This document shows, in pieces, positions 5,504 through 62,028 of a DNA stretch of 64,000 nt. The first letter of the stretch is position 1; each line of letters opens with the position of its first letter. This DNA is from Bacteroidia bacterium (lineage in GTDB: Bacteria; Bacteroidota; Bacteroidia; 2-12-FULL-35-15). The translations under genes and the position numbers were made by a program. The notes beneath the pieces are model-generated. The model was not told the origin of the DNA and did not search any database. It worked only from the letters and a program-made list of their open reading frames with translations. Location of the stretch: contig JAURXZ010000030.1 in the NCBI GenBank assembly GCA_030654175.1, positions 434,001 through 498,000 on the forward strand, in the 5' to 3' direction.

Positions 5504-5585
5504 TTGATGGTTGTTAGTTATTAGTTGATGGTTCATTCAACTTCTAACAACTAGCAACCAACAACTAACAACCAATAACAAATTT
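5504..5585 (+). repeat. Repetitive inverted leader before nuoJ
   Basis: The gap starts with repeats of TTAGTTGATGGTT and GTTGTTAGTTATTAG and ends with CAACTAACAACCAATAACA just before the nuoJ ATG. The first half is roughly the reverse complement of the second, so an imperfect hairpin can form. The sequence is low in complexity and unlike the flanking coding DNA. No promoter motif is evident. Confidence 0.55.
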
Positions 5586-10032: not shown

Positions 10033-10061
10033 ATTCGTAATTCGTTAAAATTCGTAATTCG
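10033..10061 (+). repeat. ATTCGTAATTCG half-element before nuoN
   Basis: Two copies of ATTCGTAATTCG separated by TTAAA lie 11 bp upstream of the nuoN ATG. The 29-bp unit is identical to the 3' end of the longer element upstream of alaS (24500-24609) and differs at one base from the one upstream of murB (42577-42688). All three end 9-11 bp before a start codon. Confidence 0.75.
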
Positions 10062-10072
10062 CAGAAACATAT

Positions 10073-11443
10073 ATGAAAGCATTAGTATTACTTTCTTCAT
10101 TGGGTTTAATATCACTACTTGCTGAAATTTTCAGCTTTAAAAAATTGCTGTATCCTTTTGTGTTAATAGGATTAGTGGCTACATTCATTTTTAATCTTAC
10201 TGATTGGAATACGAATATCACCTATTTTAAAATGATGCATTACGATAACTATGCAGTTGCATTTACATCGGTAATATTAGTAATTGCGTTCTTATGGTTC
10301 TTAATGTCTGAAAGCTATTTCAAAGAAGAAACAAGTCTTACCGATCATTTCGCCTTGATCCTGTTTGCTTTAGCAGGTACAGTTATTATGGTTTCTTATA
10401 CCAATATGACCATGTTATTTTTAGGCATCGAAATTCTTTCTATCTCCATGTATATTTTAGCGGGAAGTAAAAAAGATGATCTTGGTTCTAACGAAGCTGC
10501 TTTCAAATATTTAATTATGGGAGCTTTTGCCACCGGATTTTTATTGTTCGGGATCACTTTAATTTATGGTTCTACAGGCTCTTTTGATCTAACTGAAATA
10601 AGTAATTTTGTAACATCACATCAAGGTACTGTTCCTTCTATTTTTTACGCAGGGGTTTTACTGATGTTGATCGGTTTATCATTTAAAGTTTCAGCTGCAC
10701 CATTTCATTTTTGGGCACCGGATGTATATCAGGGGGCACCAACTGTGATAACAGCATTCATGGCAACAATAGTAAAAACCGCTGCTTTTGCTGCTTTCCT
10801 GCGTTTATTCTCAACAAGTTTTGCAAGTGTTAATGATACCTGGGTGAACATTGTTTGGGTAATGGCAGCATTAACACTGTTAGTTGGAAACATTACAGCT
10901 GTGATGCAAACTAGTACTAAGCGTATGTTAGCCTATTCAAGTGTGGCACATGCCGGATATATGTTATTGGCACTATTAGCAGGAAACAGCTATTCAAGTA
11001 GCGCTATTTTATTCTATACCACCGCCTATTCAATAGGATCAATTGCTACATTTTGTATTTTAAATATTATCACAAATGCAAAAGGCAACGATACTGTAGA
11101 TTCCTTCAACGGTCTTGGAAAATCAAATCCATTCTTAGCATTTGTAATGACAGTTGCATTATTATCATTAGCTGGTATTCCTCCAACAGCAGGCTTTTTC
11201 GCAAAGTATTATATTTTTACTGCAGCCTTCCAAAGTGGATTTACAGGATTGGTTTTGATTGCAATTGTAGCATCATTAGTTGGTGTATACTATTACTTTA
11301 GAATAATTATTGCCATGTATTTTAAAGAAAGTACTGACGAAACTATTACAGTAAAAATAAATCACAAGATCTTGTTGATCACTGTTGCCATAGCAATCAT
11401 CGCTTTGGGACTGTTTCCTGATTTTATAATTAGGTTATTATAA
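10073..11443 (+). CDS. nuoN: NADH-quinone oxidoreductase subunit N (antiporter-like)
   Basis: Third antiporter-like proton-channel subunit, 456 residues and strongly hydrophobic. Supporting segments are FLGIEILSISMYILAG (TM5 glutamate), APFHFWAPDVYQGAPTVITAFMAT, MLAYSSVAHAGYMLLAL, and a C-terminal ALLSLAGIPPTAGFFAKYYIF typical of NuoN. It is the last gene of the operon: a 197-bp gap follows before an unrelated gene with its own promoter. No clear intrinsic terminator is seen after the stop. Confidence 0.97.
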   Translation: MKALVLLSSLGLISLLAEIFSFKKLLYPFVLIGLVATFIFNLTDWNTNITYFKMMHYDNYAVAFTSVILVIAFLWFLMSESYFKEETSLTDHFALILFALAGTVIMVSYTNMTMLFLGIEILSISMYILAGSKKDDLGSNEAAFKYLIMGAFATGFLLFGITLIYGSTGSFDLTEISNFVTSHQGTVPSIFYAGVLLMLIGLSFKVSAAPFHFWAPDVYQGAPTVITAFMATIVKTAAFAAFLRLFSTSFASVNDTWVNIVWVMAALTLLVGNITAVMQTSTKRMLAYSSVAHAGYMLLALLAGNSYSSSAILFYTTAYSIGSIATFCILNIITNAKGNDTVDSFNGLGKSNPFLAFVMTVALLSLAGIPPTAGFFAKYYIFTAAFQSGFTGLVLIAIVASLVGVYYYFRIIIAMYFKESTDETITVKINHKILLITVAIAIIALGLFPDFIIRLL

Positions 11444-11640: not shown

Positions 11641-16332
<4,692 letters not shown>

Positions 16333-16505: not shown

Positions 16506-21194
<4,689 letters not shown>

Positions 21195-23059: not shown

Positions 23060-23163
23060 ATTGTTTCAAACAAATATAAAATTATTTTTACAGATTAAAT
23101 AATTAATTAAACAAGTTCGCTGAAAGGTTTATGAATGCATTTATTGTAATTTGATTGCTGACT

Positions 23164-23262
23164 GCGTTAGGGATTGCAGCGTAAATCCTTTACTGCCGCC
23201 ATTTAGCGGCAGTAAAGATTGAAGTGAAAAGCCCGGCTCTTTCTTTTCAGAAAGAGAACGCC
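23164..23262 (+). repeat. Two-hairpin dispersed repeat, copy 1
   Basis: Constant blocks GCGTTAGGGATTG, GATTGAAGTGAAAAGCCCG and GAACGCC frame two palindromes. Stem 1 is CTTTACTGCCGC / GCGGCAGTAAAG and stem 2 is CTCTTTCT / AGAAAGAG. The other copies are at 28872-28960, 31572-31666 and 58867-58953. It lies between the 3' end of the M23 gene and the start of the MerR gene. Confidence 0.85.
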
Positions 23263-24274: not shown

Positions 24275-24618
24275 TTAATCAATAATTGCGGATCTCGGAT
24301 TGCCAAAATTGCGGAATTCATTTTACAACATGAGGTCAAAAAATCCGAAATCAAAATTCCCTTTTTGAAGAAAAAATAATTCTTTGTGAGTTTCTTTACC
24401 ACATCTAATGCGAATTTACACAAATAAACTAAATTTGCAATCCAATTGAATCAATAAGCAATTTAACAATTTTGCAGTAGGCAATTTAATAATCGCTTAC
24501 AGAATGTCAACCTGAAGTTGTTTCAGGTTCTCAAAAGCTTATGCTGAAACAAGTTCAGCATAACCAAAGAACAAACATAGATTCGTAATTCGTTAAAATT
24601 CGTAATTCGTAGTATAAA
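24275..24618. other. Divergent intergenic region between M23 peptidase and alaS
   Basis: This gap of 344 bp holds a TAAATTTG (24430-24437) fitting the -7 consensus for alaS without a good -33 match, then AT-rich words such as CAATTTAACAATTTTGCAG, and finally the 110-bp repeat element that runs to 10 bp before the alaS ATG. No gene is seen in it. Confidence 0.5.
24500..24609 (+). repeat. 110-bp two-palindrome element upstream of alaS
   Basis: Two hairpins, AACCTGAAGTTGTTTCAGGTT and ATGCTGAAACAAGTTCAGCAT, are followed by AAAGAACAAACATAG and the double ATTCGTAATTCG. About 88 percent of bases, judged by eye, match the inverted copy at 42577-42688 upstream of murB. The 3' end lies 9 bp before the start codon, so it forms the alaS 5' leader. 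Confidence 0.85.
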
Positions 24619-27282
24619 ATGGAATCAAGTAAAGTTCGTCAAACGTTTTTAGATTTTTTTAAGTCGAAAGGACACCAAATAGTACCATCTGCGCCAATGG
24701 TGGTTAAAAATGATCCTACATTGATGTTCATCAATTCGGGTATGGCACCTTTCAAAGATCTGTTTTTGGGAAATGCTCCTATCAAATATCCCCGTGTTGC
24801 CGATACTCAGAAATGTTTACGCGTAAGTGGAAAACACAACGACCTGGAAGAAGTTGGTGTAGACACCTATCACCACACATTGTTTGAAATGCTTGGCAAC
24901 TGGAGCTTTGGCGACTACTTTAAAAAAGAAGCGATCACATGGGCCTGGGAATTACTCACAGAAGTTTATAAAATAGACAAAGAACGTTTATATGTAACCG
25001 TGTTCGAAGGCAGTACTGATGATGGTTTGGGCTTTGATCAGGAAGCGTATGATATATGGAAACAATTTATTCCGGAAGAACGGATCTTAAGAGGAAATAA
25101 AAAAGATAATTTTTGGGAGATGGGTGATACAGGCCCTTGCGGACCTTGTTCCGAAATACACTATGATGGCCGTTCTTCAGAGGATATTGCAAAAATAAAA
25201 GGGGCATCACTTGTAAATAATGATGATCCCCAGGTAATTGAAGTATGGAACAATGTGTTCATGGAATTCAATCGCAAGGCCGATGGAAGTCTTGAAAAAC
25301 TGCCTGCACAACATGTGGATACCGGAATGGGCTTTGAGCGGTTGGTGCGTGTTTTACAAGGTAAACAGTCGAATTATGATACCGATGTTTTTAAACCGAT
25401 ACTTGATAAAATAGAAGAATTAAGTACGCTTGATTACAATCCGGAAAATGAAAATGAACCTAAAAATAAAGATCAACGCACTATAAACATTGCAATGCGT
25501 GTGATAGCAGATCATATACGTGCAATTTCTTTTAGTATTGCTGATGGTCAATTACCTTCCAACACTGGGGCTGGTTATGTTATCCGGAGGATTTTAAGAC
25601 GTGCTATCCGCTATGGCTACCAGTCGTTGAATTTGAAAGAACCGTTTATGTATCAATTGGTTCCTGTGCTTGCAAATCAAATGGGCCAAGCATTTCCGGA
25701 ATTAATTTCACAAAGATCATTGATAGAAAAAGTAATTAAAGAAGAAGAAACTTCTTTTTTCAGAACGCTGGAAAAAGGTATTGAACGTATCAATGCAATT
25801 ATTATTCATAAATCCAATGCCAGTTCAAAAATTGTTGAAGGTAAAGATGCTTTTGAACTATTCGATACGTTTGGTTTCCCTTTAGATCTGACACAATTGA
25901 TCGCAAGAGAAAATAATTTTACCATCGATACAGATGGGTTTAACAAATGTATGGAAGAGCAAAAAAACCGTTCCCGTCAGGCCACAGCTATTGATACAAG
26001 CGATTGGGTATTAGTGGAAGGCCGAAAGACCGAAGAAGGCGGAAGAACATTTGTTGGTTACAAACAACTGGAAAGTGATGCAAAAATTATCCAGTATAGA
26101 AAAGTAAAAGCAAAGGGAAAAGAACAATATCAATTGGTATTGGATAAAACACCGTTCTATGCCGAAAGTGGCGGACAGGTTGGTGATACCGGCTTTTTAG
26201 AATCAGCGAATGAAAAAATAATAATCACCGATACAAAAAAAGAGAACGGAATTATTATTCACTTTACGGATAAATTACCTGAAAATTTAAGCCAGACATT
26301 TGTAGCTAAAGTAAATGCTGAAAGACGTTTGCTTACGGAGAACAATCACAGTGCTACTCACTTATTGCATGCAGCATTGCGTAAGGTATTGGGGACACAT
26401 GTGGAGCAAAAAGGATCATTGGTTAATGATGAATATTTACGCTTCGATTTTTCTCATTTCTCTAAAGTTACAGATGAAGAAATTGCAGAAATAGAATCTA
26501 TCGTTAATCAGAAGATCCGCGAAAATATTTCGTCCGACATAAAAGAAATGTCGATTGATGATGCTCGTAAAACAGGCGCTATGGCTTTGTTTGGCGAGAA
26601 ATATGGAGATGTGGTTCGGGTGGTTACATTTGATAAAAACTATTCAATTGAATTATGTGGCGGTACGCATGTACCGGCAACCGGACAAATAGGATTATTT
26701 AAGATCACTTCAGAAAGTGCTGTAGCGGCCGGGATCAGAAGAATTGAAGCTATAACCTCTGTTAAAGCAGAAGCATTTTTTACTCAACAAACAGCGTTGA
26801 TACATGAATTAAAAACACTTTTGAAAAACCCAAAAGATGTTTTGAAAAGTGTGGAAAATCTGGTGGAACAAAATTCCGAATTGCAAAAACAAATTGAGCA
26901 AATGCTTCGTGAGAAAGCGAAAGGGTTGAAAATAGAATTGCTTACAAAGAAACAAACCATTAACGGGATCAATTTTATTGCAGAAAAAATTGATCTGGAT
27001 TCGGCTGATGCAATAAAAGATCTTTCATTCGAGCTACGTAATCAAATCGATAATTTATTTATGGTACTTGGCGCTGAAGTAAAAGGAAAACCAAGTTTAT
27101 CCGTTATCATTTCTGATAACCTGGTAAAAGATAAAAACTTAAATGCCGGAACAATTGTACGTGAAATAGCAAAAGAAATTCAGGGTAATGGTGGCGGAGC
27201 GGCATTCTACGCTGTTGCAGGTGGCGCTAATTCTCAGGGAATTGCAAAAGCATTGGAGAAAGCCAAGAGTTTTTTGAATTAA
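24619..27282 (+). CDS. alaS: Alanine--tRNA ligase
   Basis: Charges tRNA-Ala and edits mischarged Ser/Gly. The 887 residues are full length: a class II catalytic core ([39 protein letters not shown]), the tRNA-recognition region, the editing domain with zinc ligands HSATH (His577, His581) and CGGTH (Cys680, His684), and the C-terminal DHHA1 domain ending in [14 protein letters not shown]. It is probably monocistronic: the neighbouring gene ung converges. The 5' leader is the repeat element described separately. Confidence 0.98.
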
Positions 27283-27290
27283 GTATTATA

Positions 27291-27459
27291 CCCTGACAGG
27301 GTTTCAAACCCTGTTAGGGTTATTTAAACTCAACAACAAAGGGGTATTATATTTTAGAATTAACAGTATCTAAAATTTGCCCCCATAGCCCTTATCTAAA
27401 TTAGCCACAAGTGGTTTGTGCTTAGAATAACCCTAACAGGGTTTGAAACCCTGTCAGGG
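27291..27459. repeat. MITE-like element with 34-bp inverted ends between alaS and ung
   Basis: The arms 27291-27324 and 27426-27459 are perfect reverse complements of 34 bp, flanking about 100 bp of AT-rich non-coding DNA. Each arm is itself partly palindromic (CCCTGACAGGG, AACCCTGTTAGGGTT). A related single arm occurs at 40366-40398. It lies between convergent genes and could double as a bidirectional transcription stop. No transposase is present. Confidence 0.7.
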
Positions 27460-27465
27460 GGAAAA

Positions 27466-28811: not shown

Positions 28812-28871
28812 TTTTTTTTATTTGCTAATGAAATTTGATGAAAAAACATCAATGTTCAGGTATTCAATTTT

Positions 28872-28960
28872 GCGTTAGGGATTGAAACGTAAATCCTTTT
28901 CTTTTTAGAAAAGATTGAAGTGGAAAGCCCGCCAATTCTTTTTTCAAGAATTGGAACGCT
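28872..28960 (+). repeat. Two-hairpin dispersed repeat, copy 2
   Basis: The constant blocks GCGTTAGGGATTG, GATTGAAGTGGAAAGCCCG and GAACGCT match copy 1, but the stems differ: CTTTTCT / AGAAAAG and CCAATTCTT / AAGAATTGG. It lies between convergent ytxJ and the GIN-domain gene. Confidence 0.85.
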
Positions 28961-31571: not shown

Positions 31572-31666
31572 GGCGTTCCTTTCTTAAACAAGAAAGGGCG
31601 GGCTTTTCACTTCAATCTTCCTTCGCCAGCAGGCGAAGGAAGGATTTTCGTTGCAATCCCTAACGC
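31572..31666 (-). repeat. Two-hairpin dispersed repeat, copy 3
   Basis: Reverse orientation. On the minus strand the blocks are GCGTTAGGGATTG, GATTGAAGTGAAAAGCCCG and GAACGCC. Stems are CTTCCTTCGCC / GGCGAAGGAAG and CCTTTCTT / AAGAAAGG. It lies between padR and the pspC-like gene, where it would be transcribed as part of the mRNA. Confidence 0.85.
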
Positions 31667-31762
31667 GGCATTACGATCAAGAACATGTTTGTATTTTTTA
31701 TTGAAGTTTTGAGTTCCATCCTTTGAATTGCCTACTATTTAAATTGTCAAATTGTTAAATTG

Positions 31763-40321: not shown

Positions 40322-40776
40322 AACCTCTTCAATTCACTCCTTCTTTTTTTTAATCTTAATAAATTAACCCTAACAGAGCTTAAAGCCCTGTCAGGGTATG
40401 TTCAATAGTTTACAAAACACTTTTAGAAGCCATAACTAAGGCATTCAAAATATTTGCCCCACTCTATTTCAATAATCTTCTAATTTATTACAAAGTCAAA
40501 AGCCCTGTCATACTGAACTACTTTCAGCACCTATGAGATTCCGAAACAAGTTCGGAATGACCTTTTTCCTGATTTGTTACCTGTTTGGAATTAGAGCACC
40601 GCTTGAGTGATATCAACAAAAAATGAGGTTATTAACAATTCGTGGGGAATAAAACACACTTAGTTGATGTTTATTGAAAAAGATACCGCCATAGCTTTGA
40701 CAAATAATGAATTATAAGGACCTGAAAAACAGGGCATAAAAAGAAAAATGAATTCTTGAAGTTTAAAATCAAAAAA
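40322..40776. other. Gene-free region with repeat remnants
   Basis: 455 bp. It holds a single arm related to the alaS-ung element (AACCCTAACAGAGCTTAAAG at about 40365), and ATTCCGAAACAAGTTCGGAAT at 40538-40558, a palindrome sharing the GAAACAAGTTC core of the alaS/murB leader element. The rest is plain AT-rich DNA. No promoter is clear. Confidence 0.5.
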
Positions 40777-41550: not shown

Positions 41551-42567
41551 TCAGATAATATTTACTTCCCTCTCCAACTCCACATCAAATTTATCTTTTA
41601 CCGAATCCATTATTTTTTGTGAGAGGTCATAAATTTCATTGCCTTTTGCATTACCATAATTTACCAATACCAATGCTTGTAATTTGTGAACACCTGCATC
41701 ACCAAAAGTTTTCCCTTTCCAACCACATTGTTCAATTAACCAGCCGGCAGCCAGTTTAACATTACCATTATCCAGATCATAACCAACTATAGCAGGGAAT
41801 TGATCTTTAAGAAGTTCAAATTTTGCACGAACAACTTCAGGATTTTTAAAAAAACTTCCTGCATTTCCAATTTCAGCCGGGTTAGGCAATTTACTGCTAC
41901 GTATATTACACACGGCTTTGCTGATGGCCTGTATGCTCAATTCCTGAACACCCATTTCATCGAGCTCCTTTTGTATAGCACCATAATTGGTATTAAATAC
42001 AGGCCTTTTAAGCAATTTATAGGTTACCGATAGTATGATGTATTGGTTTTTCAGCTCACGTTTAAATACACTTTCGCGGTAGCCGAATTTGCAGTCAGCA
42101 TTGGTAAATGAATGGATCGTTTTATCGGCAATATGCAATGCTTCTAATTCATAAAAGCTATCTTTTATTTCAACTCCATAAGCGCCAATATTTTGCATGG
42201 GACTGGCCCCTACGTTACCGGGTATCAATGATAAATTCTCTAAACCCGCATAATTGTTGGCAATACAATGCATCACTAAATTATGCCACACTTCGCCTGC
42301 ACCTGCATTAATAAAATAAAAATCAGCATCTTCTTTTACTATTTTAATTCCCTTCAGATTGTTTTTTAAAACAATACCATCAACGTTTTTTGTAAACAAT
42401 AAATTACTTCCGCCACCTAAGATCAACTTTGGAGTATTGACAAAAATTTTTTCCGAAAGAATTTCGTGAATCGCCTCAACGCTTGATAATTCAGTAAAAT
42501 AGCGGGCTGAGGCATCAATGCCAAATGTATTTAATTTTTTTAAAGAATAATTTTCGTGGATGATCAT
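41551..42567 (-). CDS. murB: UDP-N-acetylmuramate dehydrogenase
   Basis: FAD-dependent reductase that makes UDP-MurNAc for peptidoglycan. The 338 residues fit the type I (E. coli-like) enzyme: N-terminal FAD segments LGGGSNLLFT and LIPGNVGASPMQNIGAYGVEI, the type I insertion with FGYRESVFK, and RSSKLPNPAEIGNAGSFFKNPEV with the catalytic Ser. The 5' leader carries the same repeat element as alaS, ending 9 bp before the ATG. It is on the minus strand after the glycosyltransferase but separated by that repeat, so it is probably a unit of its own. Confidence 0.97.
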   Translation of the reverse strand: MIIHENYSLKKLNTFGIDASARYFTELSSVEAIHEILSEKIFVNTPKLILGGGSNLLFTKNVDGIVLKNNLKGIKIVKEDADFYFINAGAGEVWHNLVMHCIANNYAGLENLSLIPGNVGASPMQNIGAYGVEIKDSFYELEALHIADKTIHSFTNADCKFGYRESVFKRELKNQYIILSVTYKLLKRPVFNTNYGAIQKELDEMGVQELSIQAISKAVCNIRSSKLPNPAEIGNAGSFFKNPEVVRAKFELLKDQFPAIVGYDLDNGNVKLAAGWLIEQCGWKGKTFGDAGVHKLQALVLVNYGNAKGNEIYDLSQKIMDSVKDKFDVELEREVNII

Positions 42568-42576
42568 TGGATGCTT

Positions 42577-42688
42577 CGAATTACGAATTTTAGCGAATTA
42601 CGAATCTATGTTTGTTCTTTGTTTGTGCTGAAGTTGTTTCAGCATCCTAATTTTGAGAACCTGAAACAAGTTCAGGTTGACGTTCTGT
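42577..42688 (-). repeat. 110-bp two-palindrome element upstream of murB
   Basis: Inverted relative to the alaS copy. Read on the minus strand it has AACCTGAACTTGTTTCAGGTT, then ATGCTGAAACAACTTCAGCAC, AAAGAACAAACATAG and the double ATTCGTAATTCG. Its end lies 9 bp upstream of the murB start codon, matching the alaS position. Confidence 0.85.
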
Positions 42689-51825: not shown

Positions 51826-52947
51826 ATGAAATTTATTGTTTCCAGCACCTCATTATTAAAGCAATTACAAGCCATTAGTGGTGTACTTAATTCAAATAAT
51901 GCTTTACCTATTTTAGATAATTTCCTTTTTGAAATAGATAAGAACCAGTTGAAGATCTCAGCATCGGATTTGGAAACTACCATGACCACTATAATCAACA
52001 TTGAATCGAAAGATATTGGAAATATTGCCGTTCCTGCAAAGCTTTTGTTAGAGACCTTGAAAACATTTGCTGACCAACCGTTAACTTTTAGTGTTGATGA
52101 TAAAAAATTCGGGATCGAAATAATTTCTGATTATGGTAAATATAAATTAACCGGTCATAATGGAGATGAGTTTCCAAAATTACCAAGCATTGAATCAGCA
52201 TCATCACTTGACCTGGAAGCAAGCGTTTTGGCTTCTGCAATCAACAAAACAATATTTGCAGCAGGTAATGATGAATTACGCCCAGTAATGTCAGGAGTAT
52301 TTTGTCAGTTATCTACTGATGATATCACCTTTGTATCAACAGATGCACACAAACTGGTACGTTACCGCAGAACGGATGCAAAAGCACAGGCTGCTTCATC
52401 ATTCATTATCCCTAAAAAACCATTGAATCTTTTAAAAAACACATTGTCTAACATCAGTGGGAACGTAAAAATTGAATACAATAAAACGAATGCATTTTTT
52501 TCGTTTGAAAACACCAATTTAATTTGCCGTTTAATTGATGGTAAATACCCTAATTACGAAGCGGTGATTCCAAAAGAAAATCCAAATAAATTAACTGTTG
52601 ATCGTGTTTCTTTTTTAAATTCGATCAGACGTGTTTCTATCTTTTCGAACAAAACCACACATCAGGTACGTTTAAAAATTGCTGGAAGTGAATTAAGTAT
52701 TTCTGCCGAAGATCTTGATTTTGCAAATGAAGCAAGCGAACGCCTAACTTGCCAGTATGCCGGTGAGGATATGGAAATTGGATTTAATTCAAAGTTTTTA
52801 GCCGAAATGTTGAGCAATTTAAATTGCGAAAATGTAAATCTTGAAATGAGTGCACCAAACCGTGCAGGAATTTTGTTACCAACTGAAAAAGAAAACCCTG
52901 CTGAAGACATATTGATGCTGGTAATGCCGGTAATGTTGAATAGCTAA
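51826..52947 (+). CDS. dnaN: DNA polymerase III beta sliding clamp
   Basis: Ring-shaped processivity clamp, 373 residues. MKFIVSSTSLLKQLQAISGVLNSNNALPILDNFLFEI at the N-terminus is the family opening; three clamp domains follow, with LRPVMSGVFCQLSTDDITFVSTDAHKLVRYR in domain 2 and the conserved C-terminal MLVMPVMLNS for ring closure and ligand binding. It is not next to dnaA here. Its neighbours upstream are gldF, gldG and the DUF4340-like gene. Confidence 0.98.
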   Translation: MKFIVSSTSLLKQLQAISGVLNSNNALPILDNFLFEIDKNQLKISASDLETTMTTIINIESKDIGNIAVPAKLLLETLKTFADQPLTFSVDDKKFGIEIISDYGKYKLTGHNGDEFPKLPSIESASSLDLEASVLASAINKTIFAAGNDELRPVMSGVFCQLSTDDITFVSTDAHKLVRYRRTDAKAQAASSFIIPKKPLNLLKNTLSNISGNVKIEYNKTNAFFSFENTNLICRLIDGKYPNYEAVIPKENPNKLTVDRVSFLNSIRRVSIFSNKTTHQVRLKIAGSELSISAEDLDFANEASERLTCQYAGEDMEIGFNSKFLAEMLSNLNCENVNLEMSAPNRAGILLPTEKENPAEDILMLVMPVMLNS

Positions 52948-53110: not shown

Positions 53111-54232
53111 ATGACAAAAATAAAAACCATACTAACAGGCCTGTTGATTTCAACAAGCCTTTTTATTTCAGCACAAACTACTATTGTTGATAGTATCCTG
53201 TCAGGAGGCGTTTATCGTACCTACCGCTTATATAAACCTGCATTATATACAGGACTGAGCCCACGTCCATTAGTACTCGATTTGCATGGCTATACTTCAA
53301 ATGCTGCAAACCAACAATTGTATTCCAACTTTATGCCGATTGCGGATACTGCAAATTTTTTAATCCTTTATCCTCAAGGAACCAGTTTGGGAGGTCAGCC
53401 TTATTGGAATGCCGGTATATCAAATACCGGTGTTAATGATGTTCAGTTTATTTCTGATCTTATTGGCACTATAAAAAATAATTATGCCGTTGACGCTAAC
53501 AGTGTTTATTCGTGCGGTATGAGTAATGGAGGATACATGAGTCATACATTAGCCAGTACTTTGGGTGATAAGATTGCTGCGATAGCATCGGTTACAGGAA
53601 GTATGTTTTACAGCCAATTCTATAGCTGGATCACCAGCAGAGCTGTTCCGGTGATGCAAATAAGTGGCACTGCTGATGTTACAGTACCTTATTTAGGAAA
53701 TACAAACAGCCTTCCAATTGATACTTTGGTAAAATACTGGGTATCTATCAACAATTGTAACCCTACTCCCGTATTTACTTCTGTTCCTGATGTAAATACA
53801 AGTGATGGTTGTACTGCTGAACATTATTTGTTCTCAGGTGGAACCGGAGGAGCAACGGTTGAGCTTTATAAAATTATAGGTGGAGGCCATTCATGGCCCG
53901 GTTCACCTTATATTATTGGAGTAACGAATCAGGATTTTAATGCTTCTTTACAGATCTGGCTGTTTTTTAGAAAATACAAACTGAATCAATTTGTTGGAAT
54001 CAATGAAGTGGTAAATTCAGATAATTCCCGGATCTATCCAAATCCGTGCACCAACGTTGTTAATATAGATGATGAAAAAGTTGAAACAATAATGATCATG
54101 GATGTGAATGGCAAAGTGGTTATTGAAACAAACAAAAAACAAATTGATGTATCGTCACTTGCTAAAGGAGTGTATTCAGTTGTTATTGTTTCTGAAAATT
54201 ACCGTACAGTAAAAAAATTAGTGAAGCTTTAG
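53111..54232 (+). CDS. Secreted esterase (PHB-depolymerase-like) with T9SS tail
   Basis: 373 residues with a signal peptide (MTKIKTILTGLLISTSLFISA). An alpha/beta hydrolase of the poly(3-hydroxybutyrate) depolymerase / feruloyl esterase group: nucleophile Ser138 in CGMSNGGYM, Asp189 in GTADVTVPY, His260 in GGGHSWPG, and oxyanion region LDLHGYTSNAAN. The C-terminal about 80 residues (NSRIYPNPCTNVVNI to YRTVKKLVKL) are a T9SS type A sorting domain. The substrate is not determinable. Confidence 0.93.
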   Translation: MTKIKTILTGLLISTSLFISAQTTIVDSILSGGVYRTYRLYKPALYTGLSPRPLVLDLHGYTSNAANQQLYSNFMPIADTANFLILYPQGTSLGGQPYWNAGISNTGVNDVQFISDLIGTIKNNYAVDANSVYSCGMSNGGYMSHTLASTLGDKIAAIASVTGSMFYSQFYSWITSRAVPVMQISGTADVTVPYLGNTNSLPIDTLVKYWVSINNCNPTPVFTSVPDVNTSDGCTAEHYLFSGGTGGATVELYKIIGGGHSWPGSPYIIGVTNQDFNASLQIWLFFRKYKLNQFVGINEVVNSDNSRIYPNPCTNVVNIDDEKVETIMIMDVNGKVVIETNKKQIDVSSLAKGVYSVVIVSENYRTVKKLVKL

Positions 54233-58866: not shown

Positions 58867-58953
58867 GGCGTTCCTTTCTTAAAAAAGAAAGGTCGGGCTT
58901 TACGCTTCAATCTTTTCTAAACAGAAAAGGATTTACGCTGCAATCCCTAACGC
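58867..58953 (-). repeat. Two-hairpin dispersed repeat, copy 4
   Basis: Read on the minus strand: GCGTTAGGGATTG, GATTGAAGCGTAAAGCCCG and GAACGCC. Stems are CTTTTCT / AGAAAAG and CCTTTCTT / AAGAAAGG. It is between yifB and the first PD40/TPR gene. Its second stem is the same as in copy 3, its first as in copy 2. Confidence 0.85.
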
Positions 58954-59009
58954 AGCATTAACCATAAAAGAGTTACGAATACTCTTACAAACAGTTCATC
59001 GAAAAGAAA

Positions 59010-61913: not shown

Positions 61914-61930
61914 TCAATTCAGAAAAAAAA

Positions 61931-62004
61931 TCAATTATACAATTTTGCAGTATGCAATTGGCTATATATTTAGTAACTTGCATACTGCAAAATTGTATAA
62001 TTGA
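61931..62004. repeat. 27-bp perfect hairpin between orphan gene and PD40 paralogue
   Basis: The arms 61931-61957 and 61978-62004 are exact reverse complements of 27 bp with a 20-base loop. They contain CAATTTTGCAGTATGCAA, a word close to one found upstream of alaS (24469-24486). The stem ends in TTAATTTTT, so it could be a transcription stop for the orphan gene. Confidence 0.8.
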
Positions 62005-62028
62005 TTAATTTTTCTGCACGACAAAAAA

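Follow-up and report, generated by a model that had tools for sequence, protein, structure and literature searches.

A dispersed ATTCG repeat that abuts gene edges in two bacterial phyla

ATTCG arms in the leaders of alaS, murB and nuoN

The window, the whole 64,000-nucleotide stretch of Bacteroidia DNA that we analysed, contains three copies of a short repeat, each in front of an identifiable gene:

10033..10061, + strand: ATTCG arm alone, 11 nt upstream of the nuoN ATG at 10073, in the gap between nuoN and the preceding gene
10073..11443, + strand: nuoN (Pfam PF00361), downstream of the third copy
24500..24558, + strand: REP-like CTGAAAC palindrome pair (palindromes 24512-24526 and 24544-24558), 5' of the ATTCG arm and a separate module of the composite
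24581..24609, + strand: ATTCG arm (ATTCGTAATTCG-TTAAA-ATTCGTAATTCG), ending 9 nt upstream of the alaS ATG at 24619
24619..27282, + strand: alaS (Pfam PF01411), downstream of the first leader copy
41551..42567, - strand: murB (Pfam PF02873, MurB_C), downstream of the second copy
42577..42605, - strand: ATTCG arm, ending 9 nt upstream of the murB ATG
42628..42675, - strand: CTGAAAC palindrome pair of the murB composite (palindromes 42628-42642 and 42661-42675)

The original prediction placed an element shortly before these three start codons and, indeed, three ATTCGTAATTCG-N5-ATTCGTAATTCG pairs end 9, 9 and 11 bp before the alaS, murB and nuoN ATGs, in the orientation that had been claimed. The window holds six of the 12-mers (ATTCGTAATTCG, ≤1 mismatch), where 0.42 are expected by chance, and none of 100 shuffles of the window reached six. 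Rather than one element, the 110-bp unit that had been described before alaS and murB is a composite, in which the CTGAAAC palindrome pair is followed by the ATTCG arm; among its other listed matches (45 matches in all, with 40 of 68 candidates scored), most span the ATTCG end only. The alaS and murB composites have ∼118 nt in common, with 89% identity, and two further loci (L033 and L034) have 104-107 nt of the composite in common, with 80-83% identity. Elsewhere in the window, at 40513-40555, there is a diverged CTGAAAC-type palindrome pair, with two mismatches in each palindrome and no ATTCG arm.

We rejected a known RNA family as the identity of the ATTCG element, since no Rfam model matched the alaS, murB or nuoN sites at the gathering score. 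The only Rfam matches in the 64 kb are four to Flavo-1 RNA (RF01705), at 23152-23242, 28867-28938, 31592-31674 and 58887-58961.

Distribution, placement and architecture of the element

In the window's genome (G000; 5.1 Mb in 51 contigs), the exact 12-mer occurs 35 times (18 forward, 17 reverse), compared to 0 for the reversed control, and there are 21 pairs with ≤3 mismatches. At this threshold, at least one pair is present in 34 of the 36 genomes of the window's Bacteroidota genus, G000 included, and in 5 of 23 genomes at the level of the class, and 20 further genomes contain from 1 to 47 pairs each. One family of Patescibacteria has the pair in 10 of 36 genomes, while the pair is absent, at ≤2 mismatches, from 147 Bacteroidota genomes drawn from 82 genera outside the window's own. 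The records among the at least 114 contig stretches listed are titled Bacteroidetes, Bacteroidota or Bacteroidia (one of them Chitinophaga pinensis), or carry Patescibacteria-type names (Staskawicz-, Azam-, Uhr-, Sung- and Peregrinibacteria, and Parcubacteria), or are plain ‘bacterium’ records. The 24 fixed positions and the 7-10-7 spacing are the same in both phyla. Viral contigs yielded 0 exact matches, and we rejected virus-borne spread on this basis. A text search of the literature, thin on subscription papers, with the 12-mer and its complement returned unrelated papers only, and further literature listings showed nothing recognisable as this element. This patchy distribution is what a parasite-like repeat would show, and it favours one rival explanation of the repeat, that it is an inert mobile palindrome of the MITE or REP kind with no host function, which inserts anywhere, is purged from coding sequence and lies close to gene edges because gaps are short.

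Placement in G000 bears directly on that explanation. In a table of 37 loci, read by eye with ORFs of at least 50 aa and with GTG and TTG starts allowed, 25 have a same-strand ORF start ≤45 nt from the end of the match, 7 have an opposite-strand stop within that distance and 5 have neither. A stricter gene caller, applied to loci fetched around the matches with ≤5 mismatches allowed and overlapping registers removed, left 17 pair-arms: 15 point toward a start and the other 2 toward a stop (p = 0.0023). The end of the arm is ≤12 nt from a coding edge in 9 of the 17, whereas in 2000 random placements within the same gaps the mean was 1.7 and the highest count 8; 7 of the 15 start-facing arms are ≤12 nt from the start. 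The claim that placement near starts is non-random is thus borne out in this genome. Moreover, 11 of the arms reside in gaps of 150-344 bp, at 7, 9, 10 (a stop), 11, 12, 17, 21, 27, 31, 43 and 105 nt from the edge that they face, and gaps of this size cannot force such short distances. Abutment in excess of random placement in the same gaps, these wide gaps included, argues against an inert palindrome, as does the prevalence of start-facing copies.

In Patescibacteria, the unit is often one half of an inverted repeat that fills the gap from the stop codon of one gene to the start codon of the next. The full element reads stop - CCTA - [CGAAT-NN-CGAAT-N5-CGAAT-NN-CGAAT] - loop - [ATTCG-NN-ATTCG-N5-ATTCG-NN-ATTCG] - TAG(G) - few nt - ATG. 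The arms can pair with each other across the gap through their two boxes, and the two N5 stretches are usually unmatched. The unit is present in 85 tandem gaps of the Patescibacteria loci that were retrieved around matches, with both arms scoring (≤4 mismatches) in 47. In 48 full elements, the four ATTCG words of each arm are almost invariant and N5 is free; the left arm is exactly 5 nt past the stop in 22, and in 33 the distance from the end of the right arm to the ATG is 8-14 nt. Three full elements folded as RNA at -31 to -42 kcal/mol, with TAGG in or beside the base of the stem; the nuoN leader folds weakly, at -8.5 kcal/mol over 111 nt. The hairpin model misses most of the G000 copies, since an inverted partner is present within 200 nt in only 2 of 12 start-facing arms.

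Arms in both groups lie against coding edges far more often than random placement allows. The outer end is ≤12 nt from a coding edge in 93 of 146 Patescibacteria arms (null 26.6), while the inner end is that close in only 5 of the 146; for arms on Bacteroidota contigs the count is 33 of 51 (null 9.9). These counts omit arms inside called ORFs (16 in Patescibacteria and 11 in Bacteroidota), and arms of one palindrome, like related genomes, are not independent in them. A separate count, which shares the Bacteroidota loci, found 72 of 109 arms within 12 nt (null 22.7, maximum 36 in 2000 placements); it derives from 134 pairs, of which 22 within called ORFs and 3 that fell on edges were omitted, a further 4 near locus ends having been dropped beforehand. 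The gene caller uses the most upstream ATG, which could bias distances to starts toward short values, but stop distances, which are free of this bias, are equally tight in the multi-genome set.

The orientation of the arms differs between the two groups. Patescibacteria arms face a start in 73 cases and a stop in 73, both tightly, while Bacteroidota arms face a start in 34 cases and a stop in 17; only half of the Patescibacteria arms face a start, the other arm being directed at the stop. We therefore rejected specificity for start codons as such, which had been proposed from the three copies in the window: stops are abutted just as tightly. A genome-wide tally of distance and orientation against a control had also been proposed. 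In G000 that tally gives mostly start-facing, tightly placed copies; in the wider set the copies occur in either orientation, with stops faced as often as starts in Patescibacteria, and they remain near gene edges. We conclude that the repeat is genuine, that it is dispersed and abuts gene edges, and that two phyla share it.

The leaders of G000 contain other modules as well. A second module (AATCGGTGTAATCATTTTT twice) is also start-facing in this genome, in 11 of 11 matches that span its end; among 29 loci scored, 22 point toward starts and 7 toward stops (30 loci were fetched among at least 41 matches, with 40 of 110 candidates scored). Leaders at L426-L455 are modular, often with one block at the edge of the upstream gene and a second at the ATG, and with the ATTCG arm last where it is present.

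Element-bearing gaps in related genomes and a wider class of heptad repeats

We examined individual gaps in relatives of G000. We fetched 30 nuoN orthologues from the genus and could read 25; in five of these (G000, G017, G015, G030 and G035) the ATG is preceded by the ATTCG arm. By eye, four of the other gaps contain a repeat with an ATCTGTG-like word, some contain other palindromes and several are short. G000 and G017, which are 88-92% identical in DNA over long alignments, were compared in three gaps. In the NAD-kinase gap both arms are kept (3 and 2 of 33 positions differ) and the loop cannot be aligned. In the undecaprenyl-synthase gap the ATTCG arm is kept, and G000 alone has ∼100 nt of other modules, between TTTAAC direct repeats. 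In a third gap the subtype differs (TAATTCG versus TTATTCG). Over larger distances, seven orthologous gaps (11 pairs) contain elements in different Patescibacteria with 34-76% protein identity; orthologous element-bearing gaps include rpsC-rplP and rplB-rpsS (S3, L16 and L2 assigned by Pfam, rpsS read from the start of the protein). The conserved arms and unalignable loop, and the seven orthologous gaps, point to constraint on the arms, and the former, seen in one full element compared between close species, is not what an inert palindrome predicts.

The same comparisons also yield evidence for copying. The composite at four loci, with 80-89% identity, suggests that the unit is copied, as does its presence in both orientations. 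The latter could be read in one Patescibacteria genome (G064) whose arms are distinguishable by an outer ATTCG or ATTGG: among 14 full elements, ATTGG is in the right arm only in 7 and in the left arm only in 4, with other variants in 3. Both observations also speak for an inert mobile palindrome, and that explanation is further favoured by the unrelated repeat families that fill the same gaps in relatives and by relatives that do without any, with gaps of 1-10 nt. A MITE would have terminal inverted repeats and a target-site duplication; inverted arms are present in many copies of the element, and the gaps compared come from one close species pair, none of them an empty ATTCG site.

Several repeat families, ATTCG among them, lie at gene edges; some have a 7-nt period. 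The 30 genomes of one Patescibacteria family differ sharply in their ribosomal gaps: in some genomes these are 1-10 nt long, and in others nearly every gap is filled by a short inverted repeat with a different word, mostly of 7 nt (L375-L404, read by eye). In 50 such gaps (40-200 nt), the autocorrelation is strongest at lag 7 (z = 19.7), followed by lag 14 (z = 7.7), and 39 of the 50 fold better than mononucleotide shuffles by >2 standard deviations. In longer stretches, the lag-7 z is 10.5 for G060 (6.6 at lag 8) and 7.8 for G000 (6.3 at lag 3), compared to 0.2 for a 50-kb Escherichia coli control. Strong 7-nt runs occur in 14 of 114 gaps in G060, 9 of 141 in G000 and 0 of 26 in E. coli, and strong 8-nt runs are nearly as many in G000 (7 of 141 gaps). 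In G060 such runs are also found in convergent gaps (3 of 13), so avoidance of these gaps is not a property of the entire class. The window has its own example:

5504..5585, + strand: heptad inverted repeat with GTTAGTT words on the left and AACTAAC words on the right, filling the entire stop-to-start gap; ATTCG-like architecture with a different word

Other palindromes occupy gaps in the window. At 61914-62028 a gap between same-strand genes contains a long and almost perfect inverted repeat, CAATTATACAATTTTGCAGTATGCAA with its complement; at 1390-1439 a CTCTCC-AAAA-GGAGAG palindrome fills a gap and ends beside the next ATG, and palindromes of a similar kind precede nuoN in some relatives; and the convergent gap at 27283-27465 has CAGGGTTTGAAACCCTG-type palindromes at both ends.

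Known systems compared and a possible role on mRNA

The closest described system, as far as the accessible text of MacGregor 2015 (PMC4679880) allows the comparison, is the set of TAACTGA heptamer direct repeats of Beggiatoaceae, some Cyanobacteria and five Bacteroidetes. Those repeats are described there as lying mostly within several nt upstream of starts, with a minority toward stops, partly in ribosomal operons and with no known mechanism. Judged by that description, the ATTCG element is similarly 7-nt based, start-adjacent, found in ribosomal operons and patchy across distant phyla, but it has a different word, a 7-10-7 spacing, often the form of a stop-to-start inverted repeat, and its home in Patescibacteria. 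Its 7-nt period is confined to ATTCGTA-ATTCG within each box, with 10 nt between boxes. TAACTGA tandems themselves are absent: in 2.39 Mb of loci fetched, overlaps included, there were 0 occurrences of TAACTGATAACTGA, also when one intervening 7-mer was allowed.

The TAACTGA word has been proposed to act as the binding site of a regulator and so to define a regulon (PMC4679880). By analogy, the ATTCG unit could be the DNA or RNA binding site of a global regulator, with a regulon defined by the repeat and no mobility, and the 24 fixed positions and spacing kept in two phyla are in keeping with such a site. Nevertheless, the ten neighbouring genes that we checked by Pfam are housekeeping genes of mixed function, presence of the element varies among relatives, and other repeat families precede the same gene, as at nuoN. 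We thus regard a regulator site as quite improbable. The fixed 7-10-7 spacing and the positions inside operons led us to set aside readings as a DNA uptake sequence or a promoter.

Cyanobacterial STRR are heptameric, mostly intergenic repeats near ORF ends. The GGGAATC-type heptamers of Xanthomonas and Nostoc are described, in the accessible part of Rehm 2015 (PMC4692102), as G-rich quadruplex formers, mostly intergenic and nearer to the upstream ORF. Like these, the ATTCG element is heptameric, mostly intergenic and near ORF ends, but it forms a stop-to-start hairpin, a difference that holds as far as the GGGAATC repeats are described there. REP/BIME elements with RAYT usually exceed 100 copies per genome, according to the portion of Nunvar 2010 (PMC2817692) consulted. 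On that account, they share short dispersed palindromes and alternating orientation with the ATTCG element, and the CTGAAAC pair of the alaS and murB composites looks to be of their kind, but the ATTCG element has at most 47 pairs in any genome searched and abuts both stop and start. We rejected mobilisation by a Y1 transposase or RAYT: ATTCG-NN-ATTCG was present in 0 of the 30 best-matching Y1 loci examined, within 1.5 kb or up to the contig end, at which some flanks ended. A Y1 match is found in 35 of 44 genomes, G000 included, and the nine genomes without one include the element-bearing Patescibacteria G064, G065, G066 and G073. Two Patescibacteria Y1 loci (L370 and L371) are flanked by hairpins of their own, unrelated to ATTCG.

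Integron attC sites are hairpins with two boxes and an unpaired spacer, located between a stop and a start, and carry GTTRRRY-type R boxes. The ATTCG element is likewise a box-bubble-box hairpin between stop and start, and base counts of the 48 full elements reveal no GTTRRRY-type R boxes. If a transposase or recombinase recognised folded or melted DNA at gene edges, with the box-5 nt bubble-box hairpin as its substrate, a preference for such targets could itself explain the placement. The box-bubble-box-loop topology, the arms in both orientations and the exact 5-nt spacing from the stop in 22 of 48 elements would all agree with this idea, as would the N5 stretches of the two arms, which match at 53 of 240 positions, below all 2000 shuffles (mean 84). 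Selection for a bubble is weakly indicated by this mismatch, because one ancestral element with two arm types would also leave it, and N5 matches fully in 3 of the 48. Also against a target preference, we found no mobilising gene: the motif is absent beside the 30 Y1 loci, and the four element-bearing Patescibacteria named above have no Y1 match. G000 and G017 reveal no clean target duplication apart from the TTTAAC direct repeat around a different module. We consider a target preference improbable.

The end of the arm that faces the gene depends on lineage and on whether a start or a stop is faced. In Patescibacteria, an A follows TAGG in 42 of 57 start-facing ends, compared to 22 of 56 stop-facing ends (p = 3e-4). 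A G follows TAG in 54 of 57 start-facing and 54 of 56 stop-facing ends; being equally common on the stop-facing arms, this G is not there only as part of a Shine-Dalgarno sequence. In Bacteroidota, 3 of 23 start-facing ends have the fourth-position (second) G, versus 7 of 15 stop-facing ends (p = 0.03). Shine-Dalgarno-like motifs occur in 36 of 57 start-facing flanks in Patescibacteria and 3 of 23 in Bacteroidota. Thus, the start-facing end is TAGGA and Shine-Dalgarno-like in Patescibacteria, and seldom so in Bacteroidota. The original prediction had suggested either a translational role or a target preference for 5' leaders; the lineage-dependent ends are what a translational role could predict, but specificity of the element for starts is not supported. 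A difference between start-facing and stop-facing ends also weighs against an inert palindrome.

Pooled over the three sets, 2 of 144 gaps with the element are convergent, compared to 51 of 436 gaps without it (Fisher p = 4e-5), and this depletion is another point against an inert palindrome; taken set by set, the deficit has p = 0.05 in Patescibacteria, 0.007 in Bacteroidota and 0.19 in G000. Against an RNA-level role, a wobble test on the 48 full Patescibacteria elements found no RNA-specific asymmetry, and we rejected it, with G-U-preserving transitions at 21 in the left arm and 8 in the right, G-U-breaking transitions at 10 and 20, and the right arm contrary to expectation. With the points on both sides, we hold an inert mobile palindrome to be a live but rather doubtful account of the repeat.

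We prefer to read the ATTCG unit as one arm of a gene-edge-abutting, heptamer-based short repeat that spreads, is kept in mRNA leaders and intercistronic gaps, and acts in cis. Membership in the gene-edge-abutting heptamer class is highly probable; the whole reading, copying and action in cis included, we would give about an even chance, and selection for a role at the level of RNA is a tentative proposal. According to this reading, complete copies are inverted repeats, and G000 mostly retains single start-facing arms, often behind other repeat modules. The unit would spread by copying, within and between genomes, with copies surviving mainly where they are joined to an mRNA leader or intercistronic spacer. 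In Patescibacteria, a hairpin just past the stop, with the Shine-Dalgarno-like TAGGA of the next gene at its base, may assist hand-over of ribosomes or processing, in cis on the RNA; in Bacteroidota, the arm might act in cis as a leader without a Shine-Dalgarno sequence.

A broader proposal, which we consider unlikely, is that these repeats are a new class of spreading intercistronic couplers, heptad inverted repeats that span the whole stop-to-start gap and are read as RNA, with start ends adapted to each lineage, and that ATTCG was exchanged between the Bacteroidota genus and Patescibacteria, perhaps as host and episymbiont. If so, the distribution of ATTCG might mark host-episymbiont partnerships. 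If the arms act on mRNA, they would constitute a portable leader or coupling module between essential genes, ribosomal operons included, in uncultivated bacteria. Heptamer repeats that have been reported here and there would then fall into a single class, with position at coding edges as its defining feature. The exact sharing by two distant phyla, yet absence from the other Bacteroidota genomes searched, calls for explanation and provides a sequence handle toward the responsible protein or route of exchange.

The window also contains two pairs of adjacent ORFs. Those at 11641-16332 and 16515-21194 (1563 and 1559 aa) have similar upstream ends and may be tandem duplicates, and those at 51826-52947 and 53111-54232, of equal length (373 aa), may likewise reflect a tandem duplication.
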